Positions 16,136 through 30,471 of a stretch of 32,266 bases of DNA are shown piece by piece. Numbering within the stretch: the first letter of the stretch is position 1; each line of letters opens with the position of its first letter. The position numbers were made by a program, and so were the translations under genes. Below the pieces are notes generated by a model, which saw only the letters and a list, made by a program, of their open reading frames with translations, was not told where the DNA came from and searched no databases. Source of the stretch: Candidatus Gottesmanbacteria bacterium (GTDB taxonomy: Bacteria > Patescibacteriota > Microgenomatia > UBA10105 > UBA927); assembly GCA_023245335.1 (NCBI GenBank), contig JAHFKK010000006.1, positions 1 through 32,266 on the forward strand, read 5' to 3'.

Positions 16136-16152
16136 AAGCGCCGGAGGGGGAA

Positions 16153-16590: not shown

Positions 16591-16613
16591 AATAGATACC
16601 TCCGATGGTTACG

Positions 16614-16641: not shown

Positions 16642-16653
16642 GGGTTTTTTGAT

Positions 16654-17193: not shown

Positions 17194-17283
17194 ATATCGG
17201 GACGACCGAACGCGCGGCGATTGCATAAGAGGACTATACATCAACGACCTGGGCAAGTCAAGAAACTACCCGGAAAGGCTTTT

Positions 17284-17430: not shown

Positions 17431-17444
17431 GTTACAATGCCGAA

Positions 17445-17627: not shown

Positions 17628-17634
17628 CCAACCC

Positions 17635-17650
17635 GGCGCCTTCGGGCGCC
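17635..17650 (+). terminator. UUCG tetraloop hairpin between genes
   Basis: GGCGCC-TTCG-GGCGCC forms a 6-bp GC stem closed by the very stable C(UUCG)G loop. No T-run follows, so it is more likely an RNA-stabilising or pausing hairpin than a full terminator. Confidence 0.55.
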
Positions 17651-17673
17651 TTAACTACGAGAGGAGAAAAATC

Positions 17674-17952: not shown

Positions 17953-18389
17953 AAACATCTTACGCTTACAGCTTAAAAACAGAGCGAGTCCGGGAGAAGG
18001 ACTTCCCTTATAATGGAAATGAAATCAGTTGCACAAAGGAGCTTGTTGACTTTGCTAAAAAATTACAGGACAGCGACATTGAGAAAATGATAGTTGTCTA
18101 TCTCGACGCGCAGAATAAACTTACCGGGATATTGCCGATCATGGGCACGGTTAACCAGGCAGTTGTTTACCCCCGGGAAGTGCTGAAACATGCTTTGCTG
18201 TGCAGTGCTACAAATATCATCCTGATTCACAATCATCCATCCGGCAACTGCAGGCCATCGGAGTCAGATATACACTTGACAAAAACAATCAAAGACACAG
18301 CGAGAGTGCTTGGCCTTGATGTTTTGGATCATCTGATTATTGCCGGAGAAAAGTTTTTTAGCTTCCGGGAAGAGGGACTTATTTTTTAG
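17949..18389 (+). CDS. RadC-like JAB/JAMM-domain protein
   Basis: A 146-residue protein consisting of the RadC-type JAB domain. The metal-binding motif is IHNHPSGNCRPSESD, with His94, His96 and Asp107, preceded by VNQAVVYPREVLKHALL as in RadC family members. It lacks the N-terminal helix-hairpin-helix part of chromosomal RadC (about 220 residues), which is usual for mobile-element versions. The biochemical activity is unsettled; such genes often accompany anti-restriction and DNA-processing genes on mobile elements. The ATG at 17949 is chosen because it overlaps the preceding stop. Confidence 0.85.
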   Translation: MKTSYAYSLKTERVREKDFPYNGNEISCTKELVDFAKKLQDSDIEKMIVVYLDAQNKLTGILPIMGTVNQAVVYPREVLKHALLCSATNIILIHNHPSGNCRPSESDIHLTKTIKDTARVLGLDVLDHLIIAGEKFFSFREEGLIF

Positions 18390-18442
18390 CATACCACCAA
18401 GCCGCCCCCTCCGGCTATAATAGAGGGGAGAAAAGGGGAGCT

Positions 18443-18598
18443 ATGACATCAAAACAGAGAGATAACTTTGAACGGGAATACCTGACAGCAGAGATCATGC
18501 TGACGGGAAACGATGATTATGCCGACGCCCAGGATAGGGCCGAACAGGAGATTCTGCGCGGGCTGGAACTGGACGGGTTCCAAATGATTGAATTTTAG
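18443..18598 (+). CDS. Small acidic hypothetical protein
   Basis: A 51-residue, strongly acidic and helical protein (REYLTAEIMLTGNDDYADAQ). AGGGGAG lies just before the ATG. No family recognised. It belongs to the same rightward operon. Confidence 0.65.
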   Translation: MTSKQRDNFEREYLTAEIMLTGNDDYADAQDRAEQEILRGLELDGFQMIEF

Positions 18599-18612
18599 GG
18601 GGGGGTGACAAA

Positions 18613-18846
18613 ATGACAGACGAAATAGCCAGCGACCTGCGTTGTCCTCATTGCCACACGTGGCTAGCGAGGACTGAGCAGGAAGGGACTCCGCGTCCAC
18701 CTGTGCGGTGGGTTGTCTGCCGGCGGTGTGAGACATTGGCGCGTCCGCCGATGGTAGTCTGCACGAGCTGTCGAAGGCCGTGCGGGATAGTACACGACCT
18801 AGACATCTCCGCGTGCTGTTATGCGGAGATAGGAGGTGCAAAATGA
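18613..18846 (+). CDS. Zinc-ribbon protein with multiple CxxC motifs
   Basis: A 77-residue protein with CPHC (residues 11-14), CRRC (36-39), CTSCRRPC (50-57) and a final ACC. The first two CxxC pairs form one likely zinc ribbon and the others a second site. A run of G upstream of the ATG serves as ribosome binding site. The stop overlaps the start of the next gene (ATGA). Nucleic-acid or protein binding is likely but unproven. Confidence 0.7.
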   Translation: MTDEIASDLRCPHCHTWLARTEQEGTPRPPVRWVVCRRCETLARPPMVVCTSCRRPCGIVHDLDISACCYAEIGGAK

Positions 18847-18980
18847 CAAAAAACGAACTGAGAAACCGGCGGTATCCGTATCTGGATCCGCTGCCGAAAT
18901 ATGACTGGTGGTCTCTGGCGGGCGGGACATTGTTGATGCTGGGCGTTGGTGCCCTGGCGTATGTGCTGCTTTGGATGTGA
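18843..18980 (+). CDS. Small single-span membrane protein
   Basis: A 45-residue protein with a basic N-terminus (TKNELRNRRYPYLDPLPKY) and one transmembrane helix (residues about 24-44, WSLAGGTLLMLGVGALAYVLL). It starts within the stop of the zinc-ribbon gene and has GGAGGTG upstream. Function unknown; it would sit in the inner membrane. Confidence 0.65.
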   Translation: MTKNELRNRRYPYLDPLPKYDWWSLAGGTLLMLGVGALAYVLLWM

Positions 18981-19004
18981 TGGACGCTTAAGGTTGACAA
19001 TGCA

Positions 19005-19020
19005 GTCCAGTTGACTGGAC
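19005..19020. promoter_or_regulatory. 16-bp perfect palindrome, possible operator
   Basis: GTCCAGT-TG-ACTGGAC is a perfect inverted repeat 16 bases before the next gene. Fifteen bases of it (TCCAGTTGACTGGAC) also occur at 15040-15054, inside the leftward gene upstream of the small terminase. A looser relative with the same half-sites (GTCCA-N6-TGGAC) lies at 27261-27276. Confidence 0.45.
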
Positions 19021-19036
19021 CAGAAAGGGGGGCGGA

Positions 19037-19150
19037 ATGATAATCGGTTTGATATTGATAGTTTTGGGGATAGCGTTTTTTATTTACGCGCCGGTATGGA
19101 TTTCTCTGGGCCTGATAATTATCGGAATTATCTCGGCCTGTAACGATTAA
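19037..19150 (+). CDS. Tiny membrane protein
   Basis: A 37-residue, almost entirely hydrophobic protein (MIIGLILIVLGIAFFIYAPV, then a second hydrophobic stretch ending ISACND). It has one or two membrane spans. GGGGGGCGG lies upstream of the ATG. It is the last gene of the rightward operon before the terminator. Confidence 0.6.
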   Translation: MIIGLILIVLGIAFFIYAPVWISLGLIIIGIISACND

Positions 19151-19169
19151 AAAAATTCTCAGGTTTCCT

Positions 19170-19206
19170 AAGCCCGGCTCTCGTAATGAGGCCGGGCTTT
19201 TTTATT
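19170..19206 (+). terminator. Rho-independent terminator ending the rightward operon
   Basis: AAGCCCGGC and GCCGGGCTT form a perfect 9-bp stem around a 12-base loop, followed by TTTTTTATTTT. It lies between the last rightward gene and the end of the converging leftward genes, and could act in both directions. Confidence 0.9.
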
Positions 19207-19231
19207 TTCAGGTGCTTTGCCTACCATTGAT

Positions 19232-19405
19232 TCAAGGAGTCTCAACCCCATCCCTCCGCTTGACACCCGGGACCGAGGCAATATTCACCCGGCAGACGTG
19301 ATCGGGGTCTTTCCTGGCGGGGATTAACTCCCCGTCGATTGTCCAGAGTTCACGTTTACAGGTTATGCAGCGGCCAGTATATATTTTGCGTGGCGAGCTT
19401 TTCAT
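19232..19405 (-). CDS. Small protein with CxxC zinc motif
   Basis: A 57-residue basic protein with CITCKRELWTIDGELIPARK and a later Cys in DHVCRVN, enough for a small zinc site. The ATG at 19405 has a GAGG site; longer in-frame starts lack one. It is the last gene of the leftward replication operon. Function unknown. Confidence 0.6.
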   Translation of the reverse strand: MKSSPRKIYTGRCITCKRELWTIDGELIPARKDPDHVCRVNIASVPGVKRRDGVETP

Positions 19406-19418
19406 CCCTTCCTCTTCC

Positions 19419-19625
19419 TTACCTACAGCAGTCCCGCTGTTGCGCCTGCGGTAAAAATGTAACCCCATAGTCCCGCGCCAGCCGGTCAAGGGTTTGGCGG
19501 TTGATCCCCAGAGAGCCAGCCGTCAGACGTTTTGAGTTCCCCGCCTTGGCGTAGTCCATCAGAATCTTTGACGGCGGCTCGTTGTATTCCCGCCGGAGCA
19601 TCATTTCGACATTGTGATAGCCCAT
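19419..19625 (-). CDS. Small helix-turn-helix-like protein
   Basis: A 68-residue protein with a likely helix-turn-helix: KRLTAGSLGINRQTLDRLAR (about residues 32-51). The AAAGGAG site sits eight bases before the ATG at 19625. DNA binding is plausible, and its place in the replication region suggests a regulator, which is inference. Confidence 0.6.
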   Translation of the reverse strand: MGYHNVEMMLRREYNEPPSKILMDYAKAGNSKRLTAGSLGINRQTLDRLARDYGVTFLPQAQQRDCCR

Positions 19626-19627
19626 AC

Positions 19628-19822
19628 CTACCGCTCCTTTATCCACTGCTTGTCTTTGTCTTTGCCGTTCGTCGCGTCTCTTCGCACCCAGGCTGTCAGC
19701 TCCCCGTCTGGCGCGTAAAAATATATCTTTTTAGCATCGAAGTTGACATCTCCATCTCGGATGTAGTGGTTCAGCGCAAACGTGGTTGCCTTTTTAATTA
19801 TTGTAAGTGGTATTCCTGCCAT
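19628..19822 (-). CDS. Hypothetical protein
   Basis: A 64-residue protein beginning MAGIPLTIIKKATTFALNHY and ending in a basic tail. GGGAGG lies seven bases before the ATG at 19822. A much longer frame in phase begins with a GTG at 20041, but it has no ribosome binding site and overlaps a better small gene, so the short form is preferred. No family recognised. Confidence 0.6.
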   Translation of the reverse strand: MAGIPLTIIKKATTFALNHYIRDGDVNFDAKKIYFYAPDGELTAWVRRDATNGKDKDKQWIKER

Positions 19823-19898
19823 TCTTGTTTCCTCCCGTGCATCGGCCAGCCTTTTGGCCTTATCTCTTAAAATTGGCCTATCCTGGGGCAAGATTTGC

Positions 19899-20072
19899 CT
19901 AATTAGCCTCTCTGGCGTGTTCCCGCTTCTGCTCCCTCGTGCATCCTTTTGAATAGTACGTAAAATACTCACAGCGGCGCGTAATCGCGCTTGGCCGGAA
20001 TCCCGTACACTCGTTTTGCTCCCCTTGAGCCGTGCAGACACTATGTGTTACCTGGGTTCGATAGTCTTGCAT
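19899..20072 (-). CDS. Small four-Cys protein
   Basis: A 57-residue protein (MQDYRTQVTHSVCTAQGEQN at the start, then CTGF, RRCEYF and GCTREQKREH) with four Cys that could bind one zinc. An AAGGGGGAA site precedes the ATG. It overlaps the 3-prime end of the HNH gene by 32 bases in another frame, which suggests translational coupling. Function unknown. Confidence 0.6.
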   Translation of the reverse strand: MQDYRTQVTHSVCTAQGEQNECTGFRPSAITRRCEYFTYYSKGCTREQKREHAREAN

Positions 20073-20479: not shown

Positions 20480-20535
20480 TTACCCCCTTGTTGCCTCAAT
20501 AGGCGGAATGAGTTCCGCTGATTACTCTGTTGTGT
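20480..20535 (+). repeat. attC-like hairpin element A (shared half with 30417-30471)
   Basis: Read leftward, AGCGGAACTCATTCCGC, then CTATTGAGGCAACAAGG and GGGTAA, matches the element near 30433 in 39 of 40 bases with one indel. The core GCGGAA/TTCCGC hairpin is kept in both. On the plus strand the right side (CCGCTGATT, then GTTGTGT) resembles the L-prime and R-prime half of an attC site, but the left core is not recognisable. It marks the left edge of the cassette-like cluster and contains the ribosome binding site of the HNH gene. Confidence 0.6.
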
Positions 20536-20569
20536 ACGAAATATAATATAAGTTGCTATAGATAATCCA

Positions 20570-21397
20570 ATGGGACAAGAAAACAATGCAAGCACCCATA
20601 ATAACTCAAGAGGTGAAAAATTGTCGGAAATCCAGACCTTAACAGAACGAGTGAGGGAATTAAGTGGGATAGTTAATTTATGGACTTCATGGTATGTTTG
20701 TTTTGTTTTGCTTGCTGTAATTATAGCATCTGTTGTTTTTTTTACACAATTTATGTCCATAAAAAAAGGGAAAGATTTGGCACAAACACAGAATGAATTA
20801 ATTAAAGCAAAAGACGAACATCTAGTGATTGATTTAAAAGAAAAAGATTTAAAAATTTCGGAGGCTAACGAAAGAGCATCAAACGCAGATAAAATAGCTG
20901 CTGATGCAAAACTCGAAACCGAGAAGCTACGAGATAAAAATATATCACTTGAAATGGCTGTATCCCCAAGAATATTAGAACAAGGCTTAACAGGAGAATC
21001 ATTAAAGCCATTTGCTAATGCGGAAATTTCGGTTATATCATTGCCCGATTTTGAACCACGGAGAACCGCTGGCCAAATTCGCTTTATGTTGCGCTCGGTA
21101 GCTGGTTGGAAAAAATTTTCAGGTTCATTGTCACATCCAATGGCATTTTTTGATGGTGTTGTCATCCATGTTGGTATGTCTGAGTATGCTAGGACGGTGG
21201 CAGAAGCACTTGTTTCGGTATTGAATAATAATGGAATCGTTGCACGTCGCGGATATCCTGTATTAGAACTTGGAGATAATGGAGTCTTAGTTGTCGTAGG
21301 GCCAAAACCGTTGCCCAAAGAACTACAGTTAAAACCGGAAAATGTACCTTCTGACAAACGTGGAAATCGCGTTTGGGGTAACATTATGGAGGAGTAG
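20570..21397 (+). CDS. Membrane-anchored coiled-coil protein, AT-rich foreign gene
   Basis: A 275-residue protein on the opposite strand to its neighbours. Residues about 38-60 form one transmembrane helix (WTSWYVCFVLLAVIIASVVF). About 65-125 form a coiled coil (LAQTQNELIKAKDEHLVIDL onwards). The C-terminal 140 residues start with AVSPRILEQGLTGESLKPF and look like an alpha/beta domain (AGQIRFMLRSVAGWKKF, GVVIHVGMSEYARTVAEAL). The first ATG has no ribosome binding site. A TTG at 20621 with AAGAGGTG upstream is an alternative start. Base composition is clearly more AT-rich than the flanks. It sits upstream of an attC site in the usual cassette direction, so it is a likely acquired accessory gene, possibly for defence or exclusion. 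The function is inferred only. Confidence 0.75.
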   Translation: MGQENNASTHNNSRGEKLSEIQTLTERVRELSGIVNLWTSWYVCFVLLAVIIASVVFFTQFMSIKKGKDLAQTQNELIKAKDEHLVIDLKEKDLKISEANERASNADKIAADAKLETEKLRDKNISLEMAVSPRILEQGLTGESLKPFANAEISVISLPDFEPRRTAGQIRFMLRSVAGWKKFSGSLSHPMAFFDGVVIHVGMSEYARTVAEALVSVLNNNGIVARRGYPVLELGDNGVLVVVGPKPLPKELQLKPENVPSDKRGNRVWGNIMEE

Positions 21398-21492
21398 CCT
21401 TCATTACCCAAAGGGTAGAAAGAAGAAACTAAAACAATAAAACACGACAGAACCGTTACTAACATAATGAACCTCCTAAAAAATAAAGAACC

Positions 21493-21552
21493 ACACAACC
21501 AGTCATTCAAGCCGACGCCGAGAATCCGGCGCGGCTTAACTTTGCGTTAGGT
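21493..21552 (+). mobile_element. Integron-type attC site 1
   Basis: The site has the architecture of a short attC like that of aadA cassettes: left core ACACAAC, TCATTCAAGCCG, one extrahelical A, CGCCG, loop AGAATC, CGGCG, CGGCTTAACT, then GCGTTAGGT with the R-prime core GTTAGGT (21546-21552). The stem is 11 bp with a single unpaired A on the left arm. The left core is imperfect. The stop codon of the leftward methyltransferase gene lies inside the R-prime core. Confidence 0.8.
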
Positions 21553-22023
21553 GTTCATAAAACAAATCCACTGGGTTTTTGCCCGCCGCCCTGATGGATG
21601 CCCGAATAATGGTTTTTTATCAGTCAACTTCAATATCTCGCTTGTCTTTATCTGATCTTCGTTCCATTTGAAAATAAGCACCCCATCTTTTTGCAAAACC
21701 CGGAAACATTCCTTAAATCCAGCTCGGATATCTTCCTGCCACGTTTTAGTCAGCCCACCATACTTTTTGAACATCCAGCTTTTTTCACCCACATGTATCA
21801 GGTGCGGCGGATCGAAAACGACCAGCGAGAAGGCTGCGTCCGCAAAAGGCATGTCCCTAAAATCAATAGTCATATCTGGTCTTATTTTAAGGGCCCGCCC
21901 ATCGCACAGAACATGATCTTCATCCCTGATATCCCCGAAAACAACGTTGGGGTTCTCGCGATCAAACCAGAACATCCGGCTCCCGCAACACGGGTCTAAA
22001 ATCTTTTTCCTTGTAGTTCCCAT
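21547..22023 (-). CDS. DNA methyltransferase-like protein (DPPH motif)
   Basis: A 158-residue class I SAM-dependent methyltransferase. Motif I is ILDPCCGSRM (residues 8-17). The catalytic motif is FDPPH (residues 70-74), a variant of the DPPY/NPPY motif of N6-adenine or N4-cytosine methyltransferases. A helix-strand end (FRVLQKDGVLIFKWNEDQI) follows. It is short, like several phage methyltransferases, and probably protects phage DNA or modifies it. The gene is flanked by attC sites 1 and 2 and its stop (TAA) is part of the attC 1 core, so it forms a cassette with the gene antisense to the site. The ribosome binding site is weak. Confidence 0.8.
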   Translation of the reverse strand: MGTTRKKILDPCCGSRMFWFDRENPNVVFGDIRDEDHVLCDGRALKIRPDMTIDFRDMPFADAAFSLVVFDPPHLIHVGEKSWMFKKYGGLTKTWQEDIRAGFKECFRVLQKDGVLIFKWNEDQIKTSEILKLTDKKPLFGHPSGRRAKTQWICFMNT

Positions 22024-22034
22024 AGAAATAAAAT

Positions 22035-22096
22035 ACCTAACAAGGCGCTACAGCGGAGTGCCAAAGAACCGGCACCCGCTGACCTTAGCGTTATGC
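22035..22096 (+). mobile_element. Integron-type attC site 2
   Basis: Left core ACCTAAC (22035-22041) fits RYYYAAC exactly. It is followed by AAGGCGCTA, CAGCGG, one extrahelical A, GTGCC, an 8-base loop, GGCAC, CCGCTG, ACCTTAGC, and the right core GTTATGC (22090-22096). The 11-bp stem with one unpaired A on the left arm is a diagnostic attC feature. The methyltransferase start lies 12 bases to its left, and the stop of the next small gene lies within its right core. Confidence 0.85.
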
Positions 22097-22258
22097 TCGA
22101 TGTAGAGCACTCCGGCTGATGATTTCGCGCTGCCCGTTCTCGACGAACTCAACCAACGCAGAATTACATCGGCCCCTGTAAATTACCCGACAGAGCCTGT
22201 TGAAAAGCGTCTGCCGCTTAATGTTGTTTTTCCAGCAGTATCGGTACAGCGTGATCAT
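22091..22258 (-). CDS. Small basic protein in attC-bounded position
   Basis: A 55-residue basic protein beginning MITLYRYCWKNNIKRQTLFN, with a GGGGGA site upstream of its ATG. Its stop (TAA) is inside the right core of attC site 2, the same arrangement as the methyltransferase with attC site 1. No family recognised; it may be the innermost cassette gene next to the recombination operon. Confidence 0.6.
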   Translation of the reverse strand: MITLYRYCWKNNIKRQTLFNRLCRVIYRGRCNSALVEFVENGQREIISRSALHRA

Positions 22259-22291
22259 AAAATTATCCCCCTAGCTTTAGAACTCGGCTTG

Positions 22292-22678
22292 TCAATAATC
22301 AATTTCGTTCGGAGCTGGCACGTAGAACCCAAGTTCATCCCCCAGCTTCCGGCACTTGGTCATGTATTCTTCAAATTCAATCGTTGAAAGTTCTGTGGTG
22401 CTCCTGATCCGCATAAATCCATGATCGTCTGTCGTCGATAAGAACCGTTGCCGTAGGGCGAGGTGGGCTTCCTCGTTATCATATCCAGTAAACTCAGCGA
22501 AAAACGGAACTACGACGCCTCGGTAATATCTATTTTCTTGGATGCTCCGCTGCTTACGTTTCTTTCTTACAACGATCTCCACCGCCTGACCGTCGAGAGT
22601 TGATAGCCATTTATGATAATCGGCACCGGCGCGGAGCTGGCCCTTGGTTATTGTGCCTTGGAAGATTGGGACGATCAT
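22292..22678 (-). CDS. NinB (lambda Orf)-like recombination protein
   Basis: A 128-residue protein with the pattern of the NinB/Orf family: a beta start, KKRKQRSIQENRYYRGVVVP (about residues 39-58), a helical middle (NEEAHLALRQRFL), and a C-terminal FEEYMTKCRKLGDELGFYVP. Lambda Orf helps load annealing proteins onto single-stranded DNA and can replace RecFOR functions. It is next to other recombination genes (ERF, YqaJ, NinG-like), which supports this. Its start overlaps the stop of the preceding gene (TGATG). Similarity is judged by pattern, so related families are not excluded. Confidence 0.6.
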   Translation of the reverse strand: MIVPIFQGTITKGQLRAGADYHKWLSTLDGQAVEIVVRKKRKQRSIQENRYYRGVVVPFFAEFTGYDNEEAHLALRQRFLSTTDDHGFMRIRSTTELSTIEFEEYMTKCRKLGDELGFYVPAPNEIDY

Positions 22679-22938
22679 CAGAACGGCGCTCCATCTTCTG
22701 TGGCATCCTCAAGCTCGGCCAGAAAAGCGTTCAGGGCCTTGATCGCCGCCGCTCTGTCGCCAAGCTGCACCTTTGCCGGGGTGTTCTTTTCGCTCACCTC
22801 ATCCTTGCCCTTGATCGTTCTCACCGACACCCAGTACCATTTCTCGTTATATTTTCGGTGCTGGGTAATAGAAAACGTCCCTTTGTATTCTTCCAGCTTG
22901 ATGGCCCGGTCATTCCCTATTTCGATAAAATCACTCAT
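22678..22938 (-). CDS. Small phage protein between ATPase and NinB-like genes
   Basis: An 86-residue protein: a beta-rich start (IEIGNDRAIKLEEYKGTFSI, HRKYNEKWYWVSVRTIKG) and a helical acidic end (AAIKALNAFLAELEDATEDG). This layout is common for small phage proteins of unknown function in recombination operons, and single-stranded DNA binding is one possibility. AAGGAG precedes the ATG, and its stop overlaps the next start. Confidence 0.7.
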   Translation of the reverse strand: MSDFIEIGNDRAIKLEEYKGTFSITQHRKYNEKWYWVSVRTIKGKDEVSEKNTPAKVQLGDRAAAIKALNAFLAELEDATEDGAPF

Positions 22939-22969
22939 TGTTTTTCTCCTTCAAATATTTTATCTTCAC

Positions 22970-23188
22970 TTATGCGCTAACGTAGATGTTTATTTTATTA
23001 AGTTGTGCAGCTCTCTCAATAAATTCATAAAGTAGGTCTGCATCAACCCAGTTTTTCTCTGCAAGGTGGTGTACCCATTCAAGAATTTTTGCGGCTGAGT
23101 CGCACCGGGATTTTTCTATTTCGTAATGACCATCCAATATAATACAGTCACCTTTTACCTTAATGCTCACTGTTTTTTCTTTACACAC
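22970..23188 (-). CDS. Small hypothetical protein, GTG start
   Basis: A 72-residue protein with a short beta start (VSIKVKGDCIILDGHYEIEK) and two helices (AAKILEWVHHLAEKNWVDA, LLYEFIERAAQL). The GTG start follows GGAG. It starts one base after the stop of the preceding gene, so it is in the same operon. No family recognised. Confidence 0.65.
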   Translation of the reverse strand: MCKEKTVSIKVKGDCIILDGHYEIEKSRCDSAAKILEWVHHLAEKNWVDADLLYEFIERAAQLNKINIYVSA

Positions 23189-23189
23189 C

Positions 23190-23414
23190 TTACTTCTCCT
23201 TCCATTGTGGATCGACTTGTATGGAAAAATTTGATTTACTCCCGTCGAATATTTTCGCCACTGCGCTGTAAATAACGCCGTGATCGTTGGCTAGTTGCTT
23301 CATCATAAACACCTTAGCTTGTCTGCCGGTGAAGGCCCAGGCAAACTTCTTTTCTACCTGCCGGCCGTAGTTAAACAGGCCGCAAAATAGTTTTTTTTGC
23401 AATTTCTTCTTCAT
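23190..23414 (-). CDS. Small basic hypothetical protein
   Basis: A 74-residue protein, Lys-rich at the start, with AWAFTGRQAKVFMMKQLAND and IYSAVAKIFDGSKSNFSIQV in the rest. It overlaps the ATPase 3-prime end by 44 bases in another frame; the start may be further in. The ribosome binding site is modest. It may be a small DNA-associated protein, but no family is recognised. Confidence 0.55.
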   Translation of the reverse strand: MKKKLQKKLFCGLFNYGRQVEKKFAWAFTGRQAKVFMMKQLANDHGVIYSAVAKIFDGSKSNFSIQVDPQWKEK

Positions 23415-24525
23415 ATCCCGTCCATCCTGTTTCGTCGAGCGGCATATTATCTACTGATTGAAAGTTACTACCGCCTCGGATGATCTTTACGTGGCGCCAC
23501 CAACCACGTATTCCCTCGTTGAATATTGCCGCTGGCGATTTAGCCTCTTCAATGCGGATTTTGGTACATTTTAACACGTCGATGTAATCGAGGGACAGAT
23601 AGAGCCGCGCCTTTTCTTTTGTAAAGTCTCCGCCCCGGCCTAGCGTTGAACCCTGTTTCATTTGCAGGCCAATAATAGCCACCCCGTTTTGCAATTTATC
23701 CCAGATAGCTTTTATTTGTCCGCCGATCTTATAGAAATCATCATGTATTTCAAGGAAGTCAATTATAAATATTTTACGCTCAGAGGTGATGTGATCCTGG
23801 AAGTCGGATGATTGATTATACATATTAAAGAAAATGTCTTCTTCGCAAGTAAAGCCCATATTTGTCATCCTGTCCGTCATCTCTTCATCACCCATGTCGG
23901 AATTGAAATAATCAACTTCGTGCTGTTTCTGGTTATTTTTGGCTATATTCAAGAGGATCGATGTTTTCCCCGCTGACTTGCTTCCTGCTATTATTATTAT
24001 GCTTTTGGGATGAATATTACACATATTGGAAAGCCCAAAGGGTAATATAATTGGAAATTTCCTGCCTTCTCGGTCGTCTTTTTTAATAAACTGAGTTCTG
24101 ACAACGGTGTTGGTGACGATACGGTAGGTTCCTGTCCGGCCCCCATCTACTTTTTCTAATATCTTTTTATCAACAATTCTTGAGAGTGCCTTGCGGCAAG
24201 CGTCTTTTTCCTCTTTGGTTTTTAAATTTAAGTCAGTATAAAAATCACCTAGGGTGATTGTCCCTTTTATGCGGAAAGTGATTATGTCTTCTATTTCCTG
24301 CTGGTAATTTCTTCGCTGCTTGTATTCTCCCTCCAATAAAAAATGTTCATGCCACGAAAGAGCTTCCTTTTCCAACTCGTCGAGAGACGTGCTAGTATTA
24401 AAGTATTTATTAAATATAAATAATACTCTAACTATATGGGGTATGCTGGCCCCCCCTTTAAGCATGGTAATGATCGAAGTGTCCCTTACTATGTCTAAGG
24501 TTATGTTTTCATTGCTAAATGACAT
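23371..24525 (-). CDS. RecA/DnaB-like P-loop ATPase, likely replicative helicase
   Basis: A 384-residue protein. Residues 1-150 look like winged-helix or helical DNA-binding segments (RKALSRIVDKKILEKVDGGR). The ATPase core follows: Walker A AGSKSAGKTS (180-189), Walker B KIFIIDFLEI (about 251-260), and a later VAIIGLQMKQGS strand-and-sensor segment, as in DnaB/RecA-type (AAA_25-like) proteins. It is the only replicative ATPase in the window. GGGGAG precedes the ATG. The nine-copy GTGAC array just upstream suggests that the gene sits beside, and may act at, the phage origin. Confidence 0.75.
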   Translation of the reverse strand: MSFSNENITLDIVRDTSIITMLKGGASIPHIVRVLFIFNKYFNTSTSLDELEKEALSWHEHFLLEGEYKQRRNYQQEIEDIITFRIKGTITLGDFYTDLNLKTKEEKDACRKALSRIVDKKILEKVDGGRTGTYRIVTNTVVRTQFIKKDDREGRKFPIILPFGLSNMCNIHPKSIIIIAGSKSAGKTSILLNIAKNNQKQHEVDYFNSDMGDEEMTDRMTNMGFTCEEDIFFNMYNQSSDFQDHITSERKIFIIDFLEIHDDFYKIGGQIKAIWDKLQNGVAIIGLQMKQGSTLGRGGDFTKEKARLYLSLDYIDVLKCTKIRIEEAKSPAAIFNEGIRGWWRHVKIIRGGSNFQSVDNMPLDETGWTGYEEEIAKKTILRPV

Positions 24526-24841
24526 ATATTCTACTCCCCATATTCAATGTGACGGTAGTGACGAAAACGCAATTTAAGTGACGAACCTGTGACAAGATGT
24601 GTCCGTAGTGACGAAAACCGCGTTTCGTGACGGGAGTGACGGTAGTGACGGTAGTGACAAGAAGCGTATAAACATACCCCAAACAGAAAAACCGGGCAAC
24701 AATATGGTGGGACAGCACCATACCGAATACCCGGTTCCCTGTTTGAAGCAATATTAAATTTGATTGATTATTTGTCATAGCGCCTGTCCGCACCTTTCGT
24801 AAACACCCCTACTCTAAATTATAGGGGATTGCAGGGACTTT
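24526..24841. promoter_or_regulatory. Gene-free stretch upstream of ATPase, probable origin/control region
   Basis: Between the exonuclease stop and the ATPase start no well-supported gene exists. An 87-codon frame (ATG at 24778) crosses it but has no ribosome binding site and consists partly of repeat-encoded VTT units. Contents are the GTGAC iterons in the left part and a leftward TATAAT near 24820. Confidence 0.55.
24549..24658. repeat. Nine GTGAC iterons (origin candidate)
   Basis: GTGAC starts at 24549, 24558, 24578, 24589, 24608, 24627, 24636, 24645 and 24654. Several are in a 9-bp phase as GTGACGGTA; others are GTGACGAA, two of these continuing as GTGACGAAAAC. Nine copies within 110 bases is well beyond chance. 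Iterons upstream of a replicative ATPase gene fit a replication origin or an autoregulatory site. Confidence 0.8.
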
Positions 24842-25450
24842 TTATGCTAACTTTTTCAAGCGCTCAACGATCCCGGCCAGGTCTATGCAAAAATCTGAAA
24901 CGGCATTGGCAAGCTTTTCGATAAAAACTTCATCCCGGCGGATTTCTAAAATCAACGGAGGGAGCCCGGGTGAATATGACATAAAATCCCACCGATCGAA
25001 GCCGGAGATATACATCGATCCCTGCACCTGCTGGAAATACTCCATCGGGAGTGTGCCGGCCAGGAGATATTTCACTTGGGTTTTCGGTAGCACGTTTTTC
25101 AGCTCCAGCCCGTATTCGTTGTTTATGATCCCGTCCGGGCTGCACAAAATCAATTTCCATTCATCGGGGTAGATAACCCCCGCCTGCGTTACCTCTACCC
25201 CCCTCACCATCTCATAAAGTATCCGCGATTCTGCTTCGCGGCGCGTCCCCTCTTCCATCGCGGCAGAGGTGAAGCCCTCTGGTGATATGCCGCTTGTGAT
25301 CTGGGCGGCCAGGTCATACAAGTACCCTTCCCGTTGTTTTGAAACGTCGCCCTTCGTGGTGATGATCTCGTCGAAGCGGGAGGCTGAGGGCTTACCCAAC
25401 TTCTCCGCCCTCCATTCTGTTGTCCCCTGGGCCATTTCAATAATAATCAT
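24842..25450 (-). CDS. YqaJ / lambda-exonuclease-type nuclease
   Basis: A 202-residue protein of the YqaJ viral recombinase family. It shows the N-terminal GTTEWRAEKLGKPSASRFDEI segment, CSPDGI (Asp106), the catalytic LELKN (Glu116, Lys118), and YFQQVQGSMYISG. The enzyme resects double-stranded ends 5-prime to 3-prime to give single strands for the annealing protein. Its ATG overlaps the stop of the ERF gene, so exonuclease and annealing protein are made together, as expected for a two-component phage recombinase. Confidence 0.9.
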   Translation of the reverse strand: MIIIEMAQGTTEWRAEKLGKPSASRFDEIITTKGDVSKQREGYLYDLAAQITSGISPEGFTSAAMEEGTRREAESRILYEMVRGVEVTQAGVIYPDEWKLILCSPDGIINNEYGLELKNVLPKTQVKYLLAGTLPMEYFQQVQGSMYISGFDRWDFMSYSPGLPPLILEIRRDEVFIEKLANAVSDFCIDLAGIVERLKKLA

Positions 25451-26160
25451 TTCGCCTTCCCCTGCTTCTCTTTTGCCTTTAAAGCCGAAATTGCCTTTGT
25501 GTAATCTTTCGCGGTGATCTTATCTACCGTTTCGCAACTCATGTACTTCAGGAACGTCGGCACGTCTGATCCAGTCGCCGCCAGATAATCAACTATTGTG
25601 CCTTTCTGCTCGTCGGTGATATATGTCTCTCCGGCGCCATCGTCGTCAAGATTCGCCTCATTGGTTGCGGCGATCCCAGTTACGGCCTCGAAGGTGACGG
25701 CCCGCAGATAGGTGACGGTCGATTTAATCTGTTGGATTGGACTCTTAGCTCCGCTGGCGTCCGGCGCCGATTCTAACGAAACGGATTCTGAATGTCCCTG
25801 GCGGTGACTCAACTTGCACGATACCTTGATGGTTTTTTCCGTCTGATTTATATCCCATGAGGCCGAAAGTCCATGCTCCCCCAGGGCGGCGCTCACCGTT
25901 CCGACGAGGTTCCCGAGAGAAGCATACATGGCCTTCTTGTTGCCCTTGGAGAACTGCACGTTTTCAAGGTCTTTCATTACCTTCGGCGGGCTCTTGTGGA
26001 AGTTGGCAACGGCCTCAAAGTATGCTTTCCGCGCTTGGTTTGCCTCCCAAACGGTTTGGAGTTCCATCAGTTTTTCTAACTTATCGATGTCCTTTCCCTG
26101 TTCAATCGCCAAATTTAAGAGCGTTGCCGGGGTCGTCTCCCTTATAATCACATCTCCCAT
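25447..26160 (-). CDS. ERF-family single-strand annealing protein
   Basis: A 237-residue protein of the ERF type (P22 Erf family). The family core is visible: VQFSKGNKKAMYASLGNLVG then TVSAALGEHGLSASWDINQT, KVSCKLSHRQGHSES and IKSTVTYLRAVTFEAVTGIA. The C-terminal part is a helical tail. It binds single-stranded DNA and anneals it, working with the YqaJ exonuclease encoded next. The ATG at 26160 has GGAGG seven bases upstream and overlaps the preceding stop; a longer in-frame form is less likely. Confidence 0.88.
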   Translation of the reverse strand: MGDVIIRETTPATLLNLAIEQGKDIDKLEKLMELQTVWEANQARKAYFEAVANFHKSPPKVMKDLENVQFSKGNKKAMYASLGNLVGTVSAALGEHGLSASWDINQTEKTIKVSCKLSHRQGHSESVSLESAPDASGAKSPIQQIKSTVTYLRAVTFEAVTGIAATNEANLDDDGAGETYITDEQKGTIVDYLAATGSDVPTFLKYMSCETVDKITAKDYTKAISALKAKEKQGKAK

Positions 26161-27245
26161 TATAACGCCTCCACTATTTCCCGGCAAACCTTCTCTGCCG
26201 CTTCTATTTTGGTACATATTACCGTATAGGCTGACCGCGCCTCCGGTGTTTTAATGTCAGGCGTCGTGATGCGGAAAACCTCATCGAGCATTTGGGAAAG
26301 TTTTGTTTTATCGGGCAACTTTGCCGCTTTCTTTTCCGCCGCTATCCTGGCCGCCTCGTCTTTTGCTGTTTTCTCCGCCAGGTCCCGCGCTTGTTTTTCT
26401 TCCATATCCTTGACAGCTTCCAGGGCTGCTGCTTGCTTCGCCTGCTCAAGCTCGACAGCGCGGGCTTCATCGTCAATGACCTTCTGCTTTTGCCGTTCGA
26501 TTTCCGCAAGCCGCTTTTTCTCTGCGTCGGCCGCCGCCTGCTTCTCTTTTTCGATTCTTGCCGCTTCCGCCAAGAGGCCCGCTTCTTTTTCCCTCTGCGC
26601 ACTGGCAACCGCTTCGATCCGTAGGCGTTCGGCTTCAAGATCCGCCCTCGCTTTTTCCAACAGTGCCGCTTCCTCTTTGCGCTTGGATTCTGCTTCGTCG
26701 CTTATCCGTTTCGCCTCAGTAAATATCAAATCAAATGCCGTCGCTTGTGCCTCAAATTCGGGGTCAGATAAAATTCTCACCACAACATCCGGCAAAGTCT
26801 TCTCCCCGGCAGCCCATACCTGCCCATTAAACATCACACCAAGGGCGCTGAGCCGGTCACGTCTCGCCTGGATACGTTCGGCCTCCTTACGTTCTTCAAC
26901 GGCCTTAATCGCTTCTAGCGCGTCCGTATAAGCCTTTTCTTCGGCGGATAGGATTGTCTCGCCGGGTTCAAGCAGTTTCAAAATCCGGGCCTCCTCGGTT
27001 TTTTCCTCTACCAGATAATCTTCGATCGTAGCTTTTGCCTTCTTCCTAAGTTCAAGACCTTTCCTCTCAACTTCTACCCTTATCTTTTTGTAAATCATCC
27101 TGGCCGCATGAACAGCCTCAAAGCCCTTCTTGTCGGTTACTCCGTTGATTTTTAGCGTCAAATACTGCGCGTCCATTTGAGCAATGACAGCATCTTGCGC
27201 CCCAATAACGTCAAACACCCTACCTTCTACAATCTCTAAGTTCAT
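26160..27245 (-). CDS. Long coiled-coil protein of the recombination operon
   Basis: A 361-residue protein. Residues 1-120 hold a compact N-terminal region (FDVIGAQDAVIAQMDAQYLT, KKGFEAVHAARMIYKKIR). Residues about 170-300 form a long Ala/Glu/Lys/Arg-rich coiled coil. The last 60 residues (LSQMLDEVFRITTPDIKTPE) form a small C-terminal domain. Similar proteins often precede ERF/YqaJ pairs in phages; their role is unknown and may be DNA-end or single-strand-binding support. The start has AAGGAGG, and the gene ends in the TAATG that starts ERF. Confidence 0.75.
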   Translation of the reverse strand: MNLEIVEGRVFDVIGAQDAVIAQMDAQYLTLKINGVTDKKGFEAVHAARMIYKKIRVEVERKGLELRKKAKATIEDYLVEEKTEEARILKLLEPGETILSAEEKAYTDALEAIKAVEERKEAERIQARRDRLSALGVMFNGQVWAAGEKTLPDVVVRILSDPEFEAQATAFDLIFTEAKRISDEAESKRKEEAALLEKARADLEAERLRIEAVASAQREKEAGLLAEAARIEKEKQAAADAEKKRLAEIERQKQKVIDDEARAVELEQAKQAAALEAVKDMEEKQARDLAEKTAKDEAARIAAEKKAAKLPDKTKLSQMLDEVFRITTPDIKTPEARSAYTVICTKIEAAEKVCREIVEAL

Positions 27246-27257
27246 ACTTCCTCCTTG

Positions 27258-27431
27258 TTAGTCCATAAAACTGGACGGGTTGTCTTCTGCCAGAGCCTCT
27301 TTCGCAAACTCCCGTAGGCAATCGGAACAGGTAAGATTGTTCTTAACACAATTTCCCTCCAGCCCATGCGGGGGGCAATCACCACCGGCGATGAACTCCA
27401 GGGCGGCGATTAGTCTGTCAATCCGCTCCAT
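27258..27431 (-). CDS. Small four-Cys protein at the start of the leftward operon
   Basis: A 57-residue protein with four Cys (CPPHGLEGNC and CSDC), a likely single zinc site. AGGAGG lies before the ATG. It is the first gene of the leftward recombination operon, directly downstream of the divergent promoter. Its end contains a GTCCA-N6-TGGAC palindrome. Function unknown. Confidence 0.65.
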   Translation of the reverse strand: MERIDRLIAALEFIAGGDCPPHGLEGNCVKNNLTCSDCLREFAKEALAEDNPSSFMD

Positions 27432-27459
27432 CTGTATCCTCCTAGATTTTTATGATTAC

Positions 27460-27540
27460 TGATAGCACACAGAAATAATGTTTGTCAAGAAAAATCTTTC
27501 AATAAAAAGCCTTGACAACGGTTTTGTTTTAATATACGAT
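27460..27540. promoter_or_regulatory. Divergent promoters with operator-like inverted repeat
   Basis: Leftward: TTGACA (27488-27483), 17 bases, CTATCA. Rightward: TTGACA (27512-27517), then AT-rich sequence with TATACGAT or TACGAT as a weak -10. The two -35 boxes form an 8-bp inverted repeat TTGTCAAG / CTTGACAA (27482-27489 and 27511-27518). This is a natural operator for the XRE regulator encoded just to the right. Confidence 0.65.
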
Positions 27541-27559
27541 GCCAATCAAGGAGGTAGCG

Positions 27560-27775
27560 ATGAGACAGTTTGACTTTAAAAAAATAAGAGAGTTCCGGGA
27601 AGCAGCGGGGATGACACAAAACGATCTTGCACGAAAAATGGGGATACATTCGCAACAAATATGCGAATTTGAAAGTGAGCGAATGACGGGGCTTAACACC
27701 AGAACTCTGACCTCTCTGTGTGATGCTTTAGGTAAGGTCCCCAATGACTTTCTTTCGGAAAGCAGGAGGGATTAG
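27560..27775 (+). CDS. XRE-family transcriptional regulator (Cro/CI type)
   Basis: A 71-residue protein that is a single XRE helix-turn-helix domain: FREAAGMTQNDLARKMGIHS then QICEFESE. AAGGAGG stands five bases before the ATG at 27560; an ATG seven codons upstream is less likely. It lies beside a divergent promoter with an inverted repeat, so it probably represses the leftward recombination operon and itself. No larger CI-type repressor with a protease domain is visible in this window. Confidence 0.85.
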   Translation: MRQFDFKKIREFREAAGMTQNDLARKMGIHSQQICEFESERMTGLNTRTLTSLCDALGKVPNDFLSESRRD

Positions 27776-27779
27776 TATT

Positions 27780-28171
27780 ATGAGCACAGACAGACGGGAT
27801 GTTTATTTTTTGGTCAACATGTTCCCCGGCAAGCTTATTGTAGATTACGAATGCCCACACGAAGGGAAGAAAGCGAAGCACCACTGTGATTATTCCAAAC
27901 CATTCAAAAATTATGCCCAAAATGCCACGGGGCTGCGCATGGTTCGCGGAAAGGGCGTTCAGGGAAAATTTATTTAATAAGCCCCCGTGCATTAAAACTA
28001 ACGATACCAGAAATAACGCGGCCAGGCGATGGGGGCCGTAAATTAGAAGAAAGGTTTGGGGTAAGTTTCGCAACAATTAAAAGAATAATGTCGGGGAGCC
28101 GGGTAAGCCTATGGACACTTTACCGTATCGCCAATGCCCTAAGTGTAGCACCAGAAGAGATTCTCCAATGA
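27780..28171 (+). pseudogene. Frameshifted zinc-cluster plus helix-turn-helix gene
   Basis: The first frame (27780-27977) encodes MSTDRRDVYFLVNMFPGKLI, then YECPHEGKKAKHHCDYSKPF. After the AAAAA run at 27906-27910 the coding sense moves to the -1 frame: KLCPKCHGAAHGSRKGRSGK, then a helix-turn-helix ending VSLWTLYRIANALSVAPEEI and a stop at 28171. Together they give about 130 residues with CPH...HHCDYSKPF...LCPKCH, a common zinc-cluster pattern, followed by a DNA-binding domain. The second frame has no start codon of its own. One extra A would restore the gene, so it is a recent mutation, a sequencing error or a slippage site. Confidence 0.55.
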
Positions 28172-28219
28172 CAAGCCCTTTTTCTTTTGATAGTGTGCGA
28201 TAAAACATAAGGAGGCCAC

Positions 28220-28507
28220 ATGAAGCCAAAAAACGAACTCGTTGAATCGATCAAAAGGCATGAGCGTACACAACTGCTTCTGCTTTACCTCAAGTGCTTG
28301 CTGGCAATCGCGGGTATTGTGGTGATTTTTCTGTTGCTTCGGGGTGCGGTTTTAAGTGTGCCACCACCAGAACACCCTGATCCAGAGAAAGTTTCGAAGG
28401 AGGTTTATAGCCTCCTGGATGCACGGGGGCTGTCCCGTAGCACTACCGTTGAAGTTACGGAGGCCGGATACAGGTTTGAATGGAAGGGGAAATTTTATAG
28501 ATTATGA
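28220..28507 (+). CDS. Single-span membrane protein
   Basis: A 95-residue protein. A basic N-terminus (KPKNELVESIKRHERTQLLL) is followed by a transmembrane helix (about residues 23-47), then a periplasmic-type domain (EHPDPEKVSKEVYSLLDARG, FEWKGKFYRL). AAGGAGG precedes the ATG. The stop overlaps the next start (ATGA). It could be an exclusion or envelope protein; this is not shown by the sequence. Confidence 0.7.
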   Translation: MKPKNELVESIKRHERTQLLLLYLKCLLAIAGIVVIFLLLRGAVLSVPPPEHPDPEKVSKEVYSLLDARGLSRSTTVEVTEAGYRFEWKGKFYRL

Positions 28508-28638
28508 GTCAGCAAGTAGAGTACGAAAGATTAAAAGAACGGGAGAATCAAGCGGCGATTGACCGCCAGTTCTCCGACGAAGAGGAGGATTACGAACTGT
28601 GGCATAGTGTTGTCTGTAAAAAGGAGGATAGAGCATGA
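28504..28638 (+). CDS. Small acidic helical protein
   Basis: A 44-residue acidic protein (EYERLKERENQAAIDRQFSD, EEEDYELWH). Start and stop both overlap neighbouring genes as ATGA, so it is translated as part of a tight operon. No family recognised. Confidence 0.6.
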   Translation: MSQQVEYERLKERENQAAIDRQFSDEEEDYELWHSVVCKKEDRA

Positions 28639-28832
28639 CCCCAGAACAGATGGCAAAAGAGGCTCTGGCGGCTGTGCAAGGTGGAACACGCATGACACTG
28701 GTGCGCATGCGCGGAAAGCGACCACCTCTGGGATTCCCTCGCGGCGAATTGCTGTGCGAGAACAGCGATGGGAGGAATGTATATAGCTACGACCCGGCAC
28801 GAATAATTGCATGGCTCAATGCTAACCGTTGA
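28635..28832 (+). CDS. Small hypothetical protein
   Basis: A 65-residue protein with a helical start (PEQMAKEALAAVQGG), a beta middle (GGTRMTLVRMRGKRPPLGFP, RNVYSYDPARI) and a short C-terminal helix. AAGGAGG precedes its ATG. Its layout resembles small phage accessory proteins of unknown function. It lies in the same operon as the ASCH gene. Confidence 0.65.
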   Translation: MTPEQMAKEALAAVQGGTRMTLVRMRGKRPPLGFPRGELLCENSDGRNVYSYDPARIIAWLNANR

Positions 28833-28846
28833 ATTATGGAGGTAAG

Positions 28847-29260
28847 ATGAAGGCAATTTCCTTAATACAACCCTGGGCGACTGCCATAATGATTGGAAAT
28901 AAGTCGGTCGAGACTAGATCGTGGAAGACGTCCTTTGTCGGGCGCGTTGCAATCCACGCCTCGAAAGGATTTCCAAAATGGGCGCGGGATTTCGCCGAAA
29001 CCGAAAGGGCACTCGGACGTCTTCCGGGGCGTTTGCCGTTTGGGGCTATCATAGGCTTCGGTACTATTGTGAGCATGAAGGAAACCATAGTTGTCGCACC
29101 ACTGATCACTGCCATTGAACGATTATATGGCGACTATGCACCGGGGAGATGGTGCTGGATGCTATCGGACATAGATCCACTGCCTGACGATAAAATCATT
29201 CCGTGCAAAGGGAAACTCGGTTTATGGGAAGTTCCGGCAGATTTAAATTTAGCGGGATAA
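28847..29260 (+). CDS. ASCH-domain protein
   Basis: A 137-residue protein with the ASCH-domain pattern: ISLIQPWATAIMIGNKSVET near the N-terminus, RSWKTSFVGRVAIHAS, GFGTIVS, and a C-terminal KGKLGLWEVP. ASCH domains bind RNA or modified nucleosides, and some are hydrolases of N4-acetylcytidine. Phages often carry short ASCH genes of unknown role. GGAGG lies five bases before the chosen ATG. The stop codon is part of a GGATAAC sequence that looks like a degenerate attC core. Confidence 0.8.
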   Translation: MKAISLIQPWATAIMIGNKSVETRSWKTSFVGRVAIHASKGFPKWARDFAETERALGRLPGRLPFGAIIGFGTIVSMKETIVVAPLITAIERLYGDYAPGRWCWMLSDIDPLPDDKIIPCKGKLGLWEVPADLNLAG

Positions 29261-29315
29261 CACAGAAATCAAACGCCGCGAGTGATGCGGCACAAAACAA
29301 GGTGGTAAGGATGAA

Positions 29316-29404
29316 AACTAACGCAGCAATAAGGCGCGGGCCAGCGAACGTGCCAGGTAGCAGCGACGGAGGAAATTCCCGTCGCCTTGATTTAATTGTT
29401 ATCA
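29316..29404 (-). mobile_element. Integron-type attC site 5 (leftward)
   Basis: Read leftward: TGATAACAATTAAATCAAGG, then CG, one extrahelical A, CGGG, a long loop, CCCG and CGCCTTATTG-CTGCGTTAGTT with the right core GTTAGTT. The AACAATT...TCAAGG left arm is close to that of aadA-type sites. The stem (AAGGCG, CGGG) has one unpaired base on the left arm. A weaker related structure lies at 29255-29310 after the ASCH stop. The cores are imperfect, so this is less certain than sites 1, 2 and 3. Confidence 0.65.
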
Positions 29405-29425
29405 TAATTTTGAGGAGGTGTCAAA

Positions 29426-29635
29426 ATGGGATGGGCCGGGGGCAGTGACGTGATGAGTGGTATTATTGCGGCGATCAAGCCAAGAGTATTGGAGGAAAAA
29501 CAACGGCAGGAAATCTATCGGGAAATCATAACGATGATGGAAGATAGGGACTGGGATACTCAAGATGAATGTCTTGGGGAAGACCCTGCTTATGATGTGG
29601 TTATGAAAGAATTGCATCCCCAATGGGATGAGTGA
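29426..29635 (+). CDS. Small acidic protein in attC-bounded position
   Basis: A 69-residue, mainly helical acidic protein (SGIIAAIKPRVLEEKQRQEI, YREIITMMEDRDWD). GAGGAGG precedes the ATG. Its stop (TGA) lies within the core of the next attC site, so it forms a cassette-like unit between sites 5 and 3. The gene runs opposite to the attC direction. Function unknown. Confidence 0.7.
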   Translation: MGWAGGSDVMSGIIAAIKPRVLEEKQRQEIYREIITMMEDRDWDTQDECLGEDPAYDVVMKELHPQWDE

Positions 29636-29687
29636 TAACGCCAAGGTCAGCGGCGCGGTACGCGTCCGCTGTAGTGAAGTGTTATAA
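29633..29687 (-). mobile_element. Integron-type attC site 3 (leftward)
   Basis: Read leftward: TTATAAC, ACTTCACTA, CAGCGG, extrahelical A, CGCG, TAC, CGCG, CCGCTGACCTTGGC, then the right core GTTATCA. CTACAGCGGA and CCGCTGACCTT are shared exactly with attC site 2. The 10-bp stem with one unpaired A on the left arm fits the attC model. The stop of the preceding gene is inside the right core. Confidence 0.8.
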
Positions 29688-29697
29688 GAGGTAATTG

Positions 29698-29955
29698 ATG
29701 AACTGTCTATATTGTGGTGATTGTTGCCTGAGGATGTCACCGTTGACTGATTCTGAACATAACCCATGCCCCAAACTGGTGCAAGAGGGGACGTTCTTTT
29801 TTTGTGGGGACTATAAGCATCGTCCCGAACAATGCGTAAATCATACTTTTTATGCGAACCACTGCCCCATAGGAGTGGGAAAACTGGATATTGTATCGGC
29901 TGATGGATTGAGGGCAAGAATTGATAATGGATGGGCATTGATTAAGTCCTTATAA
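29698..29955 (+). CDS. YkgJ-like Cys-cluster protein in attC-bounded position
   Basis: An 85-residue protein with CLYCGDCC at the N-terminus, then PCPKL, FFCGDYKHRPEQCVNH and a late Cys. This is the pattern of the YkgJ family of putative zinc- or iron-chelating proteins. The ATG at 29698 follows AGAGG. Its stop (TAA) lies in the core of attC site 4, making a cassette of about 320 bases between sites 3 and 4. The metal and role are not known. Confidence 0.75.
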   Translation: MNCLYCGDCCLRMSPLTDSEHNPCPKLVQEGTFFFCGDYKHRPEQCVNHTFYANHCPIGVGKLDIVSADGLRARIDNGWALIKSL

Positions 29956-30011
29956 CGACAAAGTGAGCGGGCGCCGGCGTTTTGGCGCTCCGCTCGAATG
30001 ACTGGTTATAT
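29950..30011 (-). mobile_element. Integron-type attC site 4 (leftward)
   Basis: Read leftward: ATATAACCAGTCATTC, GAGCGG, extrahelical A, GCGCC, 8-base loop, GGCGC, CCGCTC, ACTTTGTC, then GTTATAA. AACCAGTCATTC is shared exactly with attC site 1. The 11-bp stem with one unpaired A has the same geometry as site 2. Both 7-base cores deviate from the strict consensus by one or two bases. Confidence 0.75.
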
Positions 30012-30043
30012 TTTTTATTAGAACTACTCAGAAAGGAATCAAT

Positions 30044-30412
30044 ATGAATTGCCAGTGTGGAAAACCAATACAATTTAAGTGGCCGATCCCGATTATCGGA
30101 GTAACACCGCTTCATACGTTTGTGGTTCAGGTTCCGTGCAACTGTGGTCGGTCTATAAACGTGCAATTGGATACCATGAAACCGTATGTCGCGGATAGGT
30201 GCGATATTTACCCGGCAAACAGAGGGGAATATCAAATACCACAGGGGGGCGATAACGTGAACTTCACATGCCCGATATGCAAATGCGGGTTCGGTTTGAA
30301 ACCATCATCAGTTCACAAAATCGCAGCAGACGGGAAAGTCACTCCGAGCGTCATCTGCCCGACTGGTTGCGGGTTCCACGCATGGGTGACACTAAAGGAC
30401 TGGAAGGAGTGA
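30044..30412 (+). CDS. Protein with several zinc-ribbon motifs
   Basis: A 122-residue protein with Cys pairs CQCG (3-6), CNCG, CPICKCG and CPTGC spread along the chain, enough for two zinc ribbons. The segments between are beta-rich (HTFVVQVPCNCGRSINVQLD). AAAGGA precedes the ATG. It sits between attC site 4 and hairpin element B. Its stop is five bases from a core-like ATATAAC. Function unknown. Confidence 0.7.
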   Translation: MNCQCGKPIQFKWPIPIIGVTPLHTFVVQVPCNCGRSINVQLDTMKPYVADRCDIYPANRGEYQIPQGGDNVNFTCPICKCGFGLKPSSVHKIAADGKVTPSVICPTGCGFHAWVTLKDWKE

Positions 30413-30416
30413 ATTG

Positions 30417-30471
30417 ATATAACAGCGCAATAAGCGGAACTATTCCGCCTATTGAGGCAACAAGGGGGTAA
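30417..30471 (-). repeat. attC-like hairpin element B (shared half with 20480-20535)
   Basis: On the plus strand AGCGGAACTATTCCGCC, TATTGAGGCAACAAGG and GGGTAA match element A apart from one deleted base in the loop. Read leftward the right side is CCGCTTATTGCGCT and GTTATAT, a plausible R-prime core. The other core is not recognisable. It marks the right edge of the rightward accessory cluster and points the opposite way to element A. Confidence 0.6.

Follow-up and report, generated by a model that had tools for sequence, protein, structure and literature searches.

Clusters of integron attC sites without an integrase (CALINs) are already known from phages: the survey of Qi et al. 2023 (PMC9892861) covered 10,705 phage genomes and yielded 17 CALINs, 3 complete integrons and one In0, while five of six tested lytic-phage attCs were recombined with attI1 by IntI1. 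For this reason the earlier note on the present locus, made from the sequence alone, failed in describing attC cassettes in a phage as a new route for cassette spread. The phage CALINs TJE1, P12002L and PH101 (PMC9892861) resemble the window (i.e., the whole analysed stretch of DNA, 32,266 bp) in having attC clusters without integrase and methyltransferase cassettes, but a typical gene orientation was reported for TJE1 and PH101 in contrast to the inverted genes of the window. Furthermore, the relevant sections of that paper make no mention of a recurrent attI core at the starts of the arrays, whereas the window possesses an attI-like core, two convergent arrays, and relatives with different cassettes at the same loci.

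The Shewanella prophage M16-3 (PMC9892861) is similar to the window in carrying two arrays, which in M16-3 both start at one and the same attI and in the window at the attI-like core, but it is a cryptic prophage with intI, and its attI (AAACGCGCATGCGCACTAATAAAATGTT) is unlike the window core. The class 1 integron arrays (aadA, psp and cmlA attCs) share the attC anatomy, with one window site (site 1) being approximately 80% identical over 57 bp, while they differ by the presence of intI1, attI1, a promoter at the attI end and genes oriented in the attC direction. Short attI or non-classical double-stranded IntI targets, as proposed for the window, are represented by truncated attI cassettes (PMC12901181) and attG; their minimal consensus is AAACAAAGTTRRRY or AATAAAATGTTRRRY, and not TTCCGCTTATTRCRCTGTT as here. 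Neither a recurrent integrase-less attI core nor mostly inverted cassettes in phages were found described in the literature searched, which excluded most subscription journals, and it is the combination of such a platform with inverted cassettes that appears to be new.

The phage contig and its bin

The window represents one entire contig (C5) within a 1.55 Mb metagenome bin. It belongs to a tailed phage, since it encodes terminase subunits, portal, major head protein, endolysin, holin, an Erf-like annealing protein, NinB and a NinG-like nuclease, fulfilling the criterion of terminase, portal and head genes on a single contig. The interpretation of the earlier note, attC sites inside a phage genome, was supported. 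The five sites were the only attC sites of the bin, with nothing else significant detected by the second covariance model (see below); no integron was found elsewhere in the bin and no IntI above the cut-off, in agreement with the statement of the earlier note that an integron integrase was not visible.

The bin was considered as the phage host and rejected: its relatives searched have very small genomes (0.5–1.6 Mb) without integrons, and 76 out of 77 lack attC. The single exception, contig 117 (L168) of G037, a bin from the same family, contained integron cassettes of the usual bacterial type, their genes pointing the same way as attC, and is likely to be a stray contig. For these reasons, the window phage has probably been misbinned, and the bin is probably not its host.

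Identity and structure of the attC sites

All five attC sites were found at the positions claimed for them previously (Table 1). When both strands were scanned blindly for the structural pattern of AAC, stem, a single unpaired base, stem and GTT, these five were recovered together with one weak, unrelated match in a coding region. Each site consisted of AAC, 9 nt, a 6-bp stem, one unpaired A, a further stem of 4–5 bp and 8 nt to GTT, sites 3–5 showing on the plus strand the extra base as a T in the right arm. Both the attC criterion (RYYYAAC ... GTTRRRY, a paired L''/L' stem and extrahelical base(s)) and the CALIN criterion (two and three attCs, each cluster within 0.7 kb, intI absent) were met.

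A looser geometric scan, which gave 59 background matches in 0.78 Mb, was replaced by covariance models. The first model (R1) contained no window sequence and was based on five class 1 attCs from plasmids plus two from phage TJE1; the second (R2) was derived from 38 hits with sites 2 and 4 left out. The scores were far above background, while scores at background level had been proposed as a refutation in the earlier note. The AAC/GTT core bases and the unpaired A were invariant across the 38 sites, and the stem covaried, with 90.9% of cells paired and 124 cells changed on both sides; pairing dropped to 30–38% when the stem partner was slid. Folding as single-stranded DNA, also suggested previously, showed that the bottom strands of four of the five sites were better than shuffles (z −3.2 to −4.9), while that of site 3 was not (z −1.3), marking it as structurally weak. 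An Rfam search gave no match. Site 1 matched plasmid DNA in 3128 records, the best listed being integron attCs, so that its claimed likeness to aadA-type sites held. In contrast, the claimed sharing of arms between sites 1 and 4 and between sites 2 and 3 failed: the actual pairs are 1 and 5, sharing AACCAGTCATTC, and 2 and 4, sharing CAGCGG / CCGCTGACCTTrGCGTTAT. The five sequences are genuine attC sites of the integron type, carried by a tailed phage lacking an integrase.

Table 1. Positions of the integron-type features in the window (R1 and R2, first and second covariance model)
Feature	Position	Strand	Details
attI-like core, array 1 (TTCCGCTGATTACTCTGTT)	20513..20531	+	crossover G 20529; three mismatches to consensus
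Cassette 1.1	20530..21546	+	ORF 20570-21397 (+); bounded by GTT of core and GTT of site 1
attC site 1	21493..21552	+	R1 45.4 bits, E 3.2e-10; ssDNA z −4.4; matches to plasmid integron attCs
Cassette 1.2	21547..22090	+	DNA methyltransferase ORF 21547-22023 (−), phrog_954, E 7e-79
attC site 2	22035..22096	+	R1 20.4 bits, E 5e-3; R2 53.6 bits (not trained on site 2)
Backbone beyond last attC of array 1	22091..22280	+	97.5% identical to G001 86-286, also post-array there
attC site 3, long variable loop	29316..29404	−	R1 29.1 bits with default filters, 9.2 bits unfiltered; weak fold
Cassette 2.3	29322..29638	−	ORF 29426-29635 (+), 69 aa, inverted; phrog_11183, E 3e-5
attC site 4	29633..29687	−	R1 22.5 bits, E 1e-3; R2 46.5 bits (not trained on site 4)
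Cassette 2.2	29639..29955	−	ORF 29695-29955 (+), 86 aa, cysteine-rich, inverted; stop TAA in core
attC site 5, first of array 2	29950..30011	−	R1 29.8 bits, E 9e-6
Cassette 2.1	29956..30422	−	ORF 30044-30412 (+), inverted relative to attC
attI-like core, array 2 (TTCCGCTTATTGCGCTGTT)	30421..30439	−	crossover G 30423; exact consensus

Array starts and cassette boundaries

As sites 1 and 2 are oriented along the plus strand and sites 3–5 along the minus strand, the two arrays converge. Each starts with a repeat, at approximately 20.46–20.53 kb (plus) and 30.48–30.42 kb (minus), ending in a 19-bp core with GTT; the core of array 2 lies inside a longer repeat which is also present at array 1. These two attI-like starts, as well as the perfect R'/R'' agreement and the gene inversion presented below, are the features that tell most about the locus, and they were missing from the earlier note.

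A cassette excises as a circle, and its first seven bases are, therefore, expected to be reverse-complementary to the R'' box of the same cassette. All five window cassettes agreed in 7/7 nt: GTTGTGT/ACACAAC (array 1 core and site 1, exact), GTTAGGT/ACCTAAC, GTTATAT/ATATAAC (array 2 core and site 5), GTTATAA/TTATAAC and GTTATCA/TGATAAC. Since two of the matching cassettes start at the cores, the latter are tied to cassette insertion. For cassettes between neighboring attCs in 14 records, a match at all four variable bases was obtained in 43 out of 86, compared to 4.6% for wrong pairings.

The stop codon TAA of the methyltransferase ORF in cassette 1.2 comes from the GTTA core (R'/R'' 4/4), and the stop TGA in cassette 2.3 overlaps the core TGATAAC. 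The protein of cassette 2.2 gave a weak CxxCxxCC match (E 0.02) and none in phages. The window cassettes had no DNA in common with the other core-bearing phages described below.

Cassette turnover in close relatives

Two relatives, G001 (IMGVR 3300027819_000027) and G002 (3300001380_000012), share most of the window structural region at mostly 90–99% identity with one stretch of 77%, and their TerL, portal and head proteins are 97–98% identical to those of the window. Both array loci are present in G001, with different attCs and cassettes and at least seven attCs in array 2, while at array 1 the backbone resumes at the same base past the last attC as in the window. Cassettes have thus been turned over between closely related phages. 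At the start of the G001 contig, attC_b is joined directly to the backbone (GTTATGC), and at its end attC_b (GTTAGGC) is followed by an extra insert, attC_a and then the same backbone. This suggests that one sample contained two alleles joined at G|TT, one carrying a cassette and the other lacking it, although it relies on contig ends and not on reads. Excision and insertion activity is only inferred, with indirect support from the turnover and these two alleles.

A recurrent core in unrelated phages without integrase

In separate scans of viral contigs for attC arrays and for the core, five core-bearing phages of four lineages were recognized: the window, G001, G013, G105 and G106. The core TTCCGCTTATTRCRCTGTT headed 13 of their 16 arrays, in 12 cases with three mismatches or less and in one (minus array of G013) with five, and the R'' agreement in the core-headed arrays was 4/4 in ten and 3/4 in three; the remaining three arrays, in G105 and G106, had no recognizable core. 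Five core-headed arrays and one more strong core were present in the 52.8-kb G105. In 74 other phage loci, amounting to 1.55 Mb and searched on both strands, the core did not occur within three mismatches, and the isolate phages and plasmids searched gave only chance-level partial matches. PH101 was tried as a further core-bearing phage and was not counted: attCs were found, but its core-like site had four mismatches and the cassette-end matches were imperfect.

The core was not inherited with the phage backbone, given that the TerL of the window and G105 are only 34% identical, that none of the window proteins tested matched in G106, and that only a weak Erf match to the window was seen among the part of G013 compared. 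TerL was located on the same contig as attC in G001, G010, G013, G015, G019, G020, G105 and G106, and in weaker form in G026. What is observed at the array starts is a conserved core and a matching cassette start, with no binding or recombination data, and the function of the core as attI remains an inference from sequence alone. A host search by means of this core in the genome contig collection produced a sole match to an unrelated Bacillus-type hairpin; neither a host nor an IntI nor a bacterial integron carrying this attI core came to light in this one scan.

A core without a detectable attC downstream was present in G105 at position 6766 on the plus strand (L179), possibly representing an empty attI.

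The tyrosine recombinase domain PF00589 was not detected in the window contig, G001, G002, G003, G008 and G009, nor in G013, G105 and G106, and is thus absent from all five core-bearing phages. Among the other attC-bearing records it was present only in G020 (a 103-aa fragment) and G010 (weak), and none of 18 other attC-pattern records reached the IntI cut-off. The criterion of a complete integron, i.e., intI adjoining attI, was not met. A phage integrase located elsewhere cannot be excluded, as the records may be incomplete or fragments.

The viral contig G023 (IMGVR 3300025012_000002), which is very large (194 kb) and gave no integrase match, also bears attC arrays, located at 76.9–80.0, 105.2–106.9 and 118.0–119.2 kb and without exception on the minus strand.

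Orientation of the cassette genes

The cassette genes are mostly inverted: of 49 cassettes in the five core-bearing phages, 28 had the gene opposite to the attC direction, 20 were ambiguous and a single one (cassette 1.1 of the window) had it clearly in the same direction. The direction was called by a clearly longer ORF and thus rests on ORF length. The longest ORF in six frames ended at a TAA made by the core (GTTA, other strand) in 31/49 cassettes, compared to 2.8% in shuffles; in the other attC-bearing contigs this was the case for 16/54, and in TJE1 for none. Most of the cassette genes were aligned with the neighboring phage genes. They included several methyltransferase-like proteins (phrog_954 in the window; DPPW/DPPY motifs in G001 and G013).

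Some ORFs in G013 and G105 begin within an attC loop which, on the gene strand, carries a ribosome-binding site and ATG, so that different cassettes share an N-terminal leader. Such leaders were noticed in L156 (G013) at 3062–3290 and in L181 (G105) near 16376–16710 (MTKENSGLSNVRSND; MQE..RTKETE).

Proposed mechanism and alternatives

The most plausible reading, to which we assign a probability of roughly 0.78, is that of two integrase-less integron platforms in the phage, whose cassettes are moved by an IntI acting in trans; it is based on sequence, and no recombination has been observed. Each platform would begin with a short attI-like site, behind which the cassettes are lined up, every one of them terminated by a folded attC. 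The reading rests on the attC identity, the conserved array starts, the R'/R'' agreement, the cassette turnover between close relatives and the gene inversion, all of which are shown by the data. The enzyme and its source are inferred, the infected host being the most likely supplier. The integrase would bind the folded bottom strand of attC and the double-stranded core, and insert or excise cassettes at G|TT. As most of the genes lie opposite to attC and in line with the neighboring phage genes, their expression would be provided by phage transcription and not by an integron promoter, and the recombination core would often supply the stop codon of the cassette gene. The weak points are the poor structure of site 3, the mismatches in the array 1 core, the ambiguous cassettes and the coreless arrays.

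A bolder version, towards which we incline by a narrow margin, sees a phage-adapted integron: unrelated phages would carry from one to several portable 19-bp attI without integrase and exchange small genes through the host IntI, with the genes inverted to suit the phage transcripts, the core supplying the stop codon, and some attC loops supplying a ribosome-binding site and start codon.

The first alternative is an accidental insertion, either by a host IntI at non-classical attG-type targets in ordinary phage DNA or by illegitimate pickup of a host array, in which case the array starts would not be dedicated. In its favor, bacterial genomes contain attG sites on which IntI1 acts (Loot et al. 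2024, cited in PMC12901181), off-target capture was proposed for phage clusters by Qi et al. (PMC9892861), and three arrays in G105 and G106 lack the core. However, chance insertion of the attG type demands starts without a shared dedicated sequence, while the same core stands at most of the array starts in phages otherwise sharing almost nothing (TerL 34% identical or undetected), heads up to five arrays per genome and is absent from the background. Moreover, random capture of host arrays would not predict the consistent inversion. This explanation is, therefore, unlikely.

Even less likely is a separate, integron-resembling system in which a recombinase of the phage group itself uses attC-like hairpins. 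The recurrent core without IntI and the presence of an Erf-like annealing protein and a NinG-like nuclease in the same phage speak for it; against it are the absence of PF00589 from all five core-bearing phages, the match of attC structure and core to bacterial IntI substrates, and the identity of site 1 to plasmid attCs. The third possibility, that these hairpins, which are GC-rich and separate short genes, serve the phage as transcription terminators or as intergenic structures of another kind, is practically ruled out by a terminator scan that flagged no site and by the invariant AAC/GTT, the unpaired A and the R'/R'' matching over whole cassettes; plain terminators with no conserved core bases, the other refutation foreseen in the earlier note, are incompatible with the invariant core and the covarying stem.

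If integron platforms served by IntI in trans are confirmed, phages would be regular users of integron recombination rather than its accidental carriers, which would link the phage–host conflict to the integron cassette pool, and the DNA methyltransferase genes among the cassettes may help to evade host restriction. The 19-bp signature can be used to seek the host integrase.

Other features of the window

Two neighboring proteins resembling radical-SAM enzymes (cysteine motifs, from translation) are encoded at 4341–6783 within the phage structural module. The region 15400–20000 has a low coding density and a patchy similarity of 78–92% to G001, with a RadC-like ORF at 17847–18389, and might consist of many small genes or of decayed sequence. 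At 24547–24664, next to a helicase gene, a direct repeat around GTAGTGACG(AAAAC) occurs in four almost identical copies, which may be iterons or an operator.
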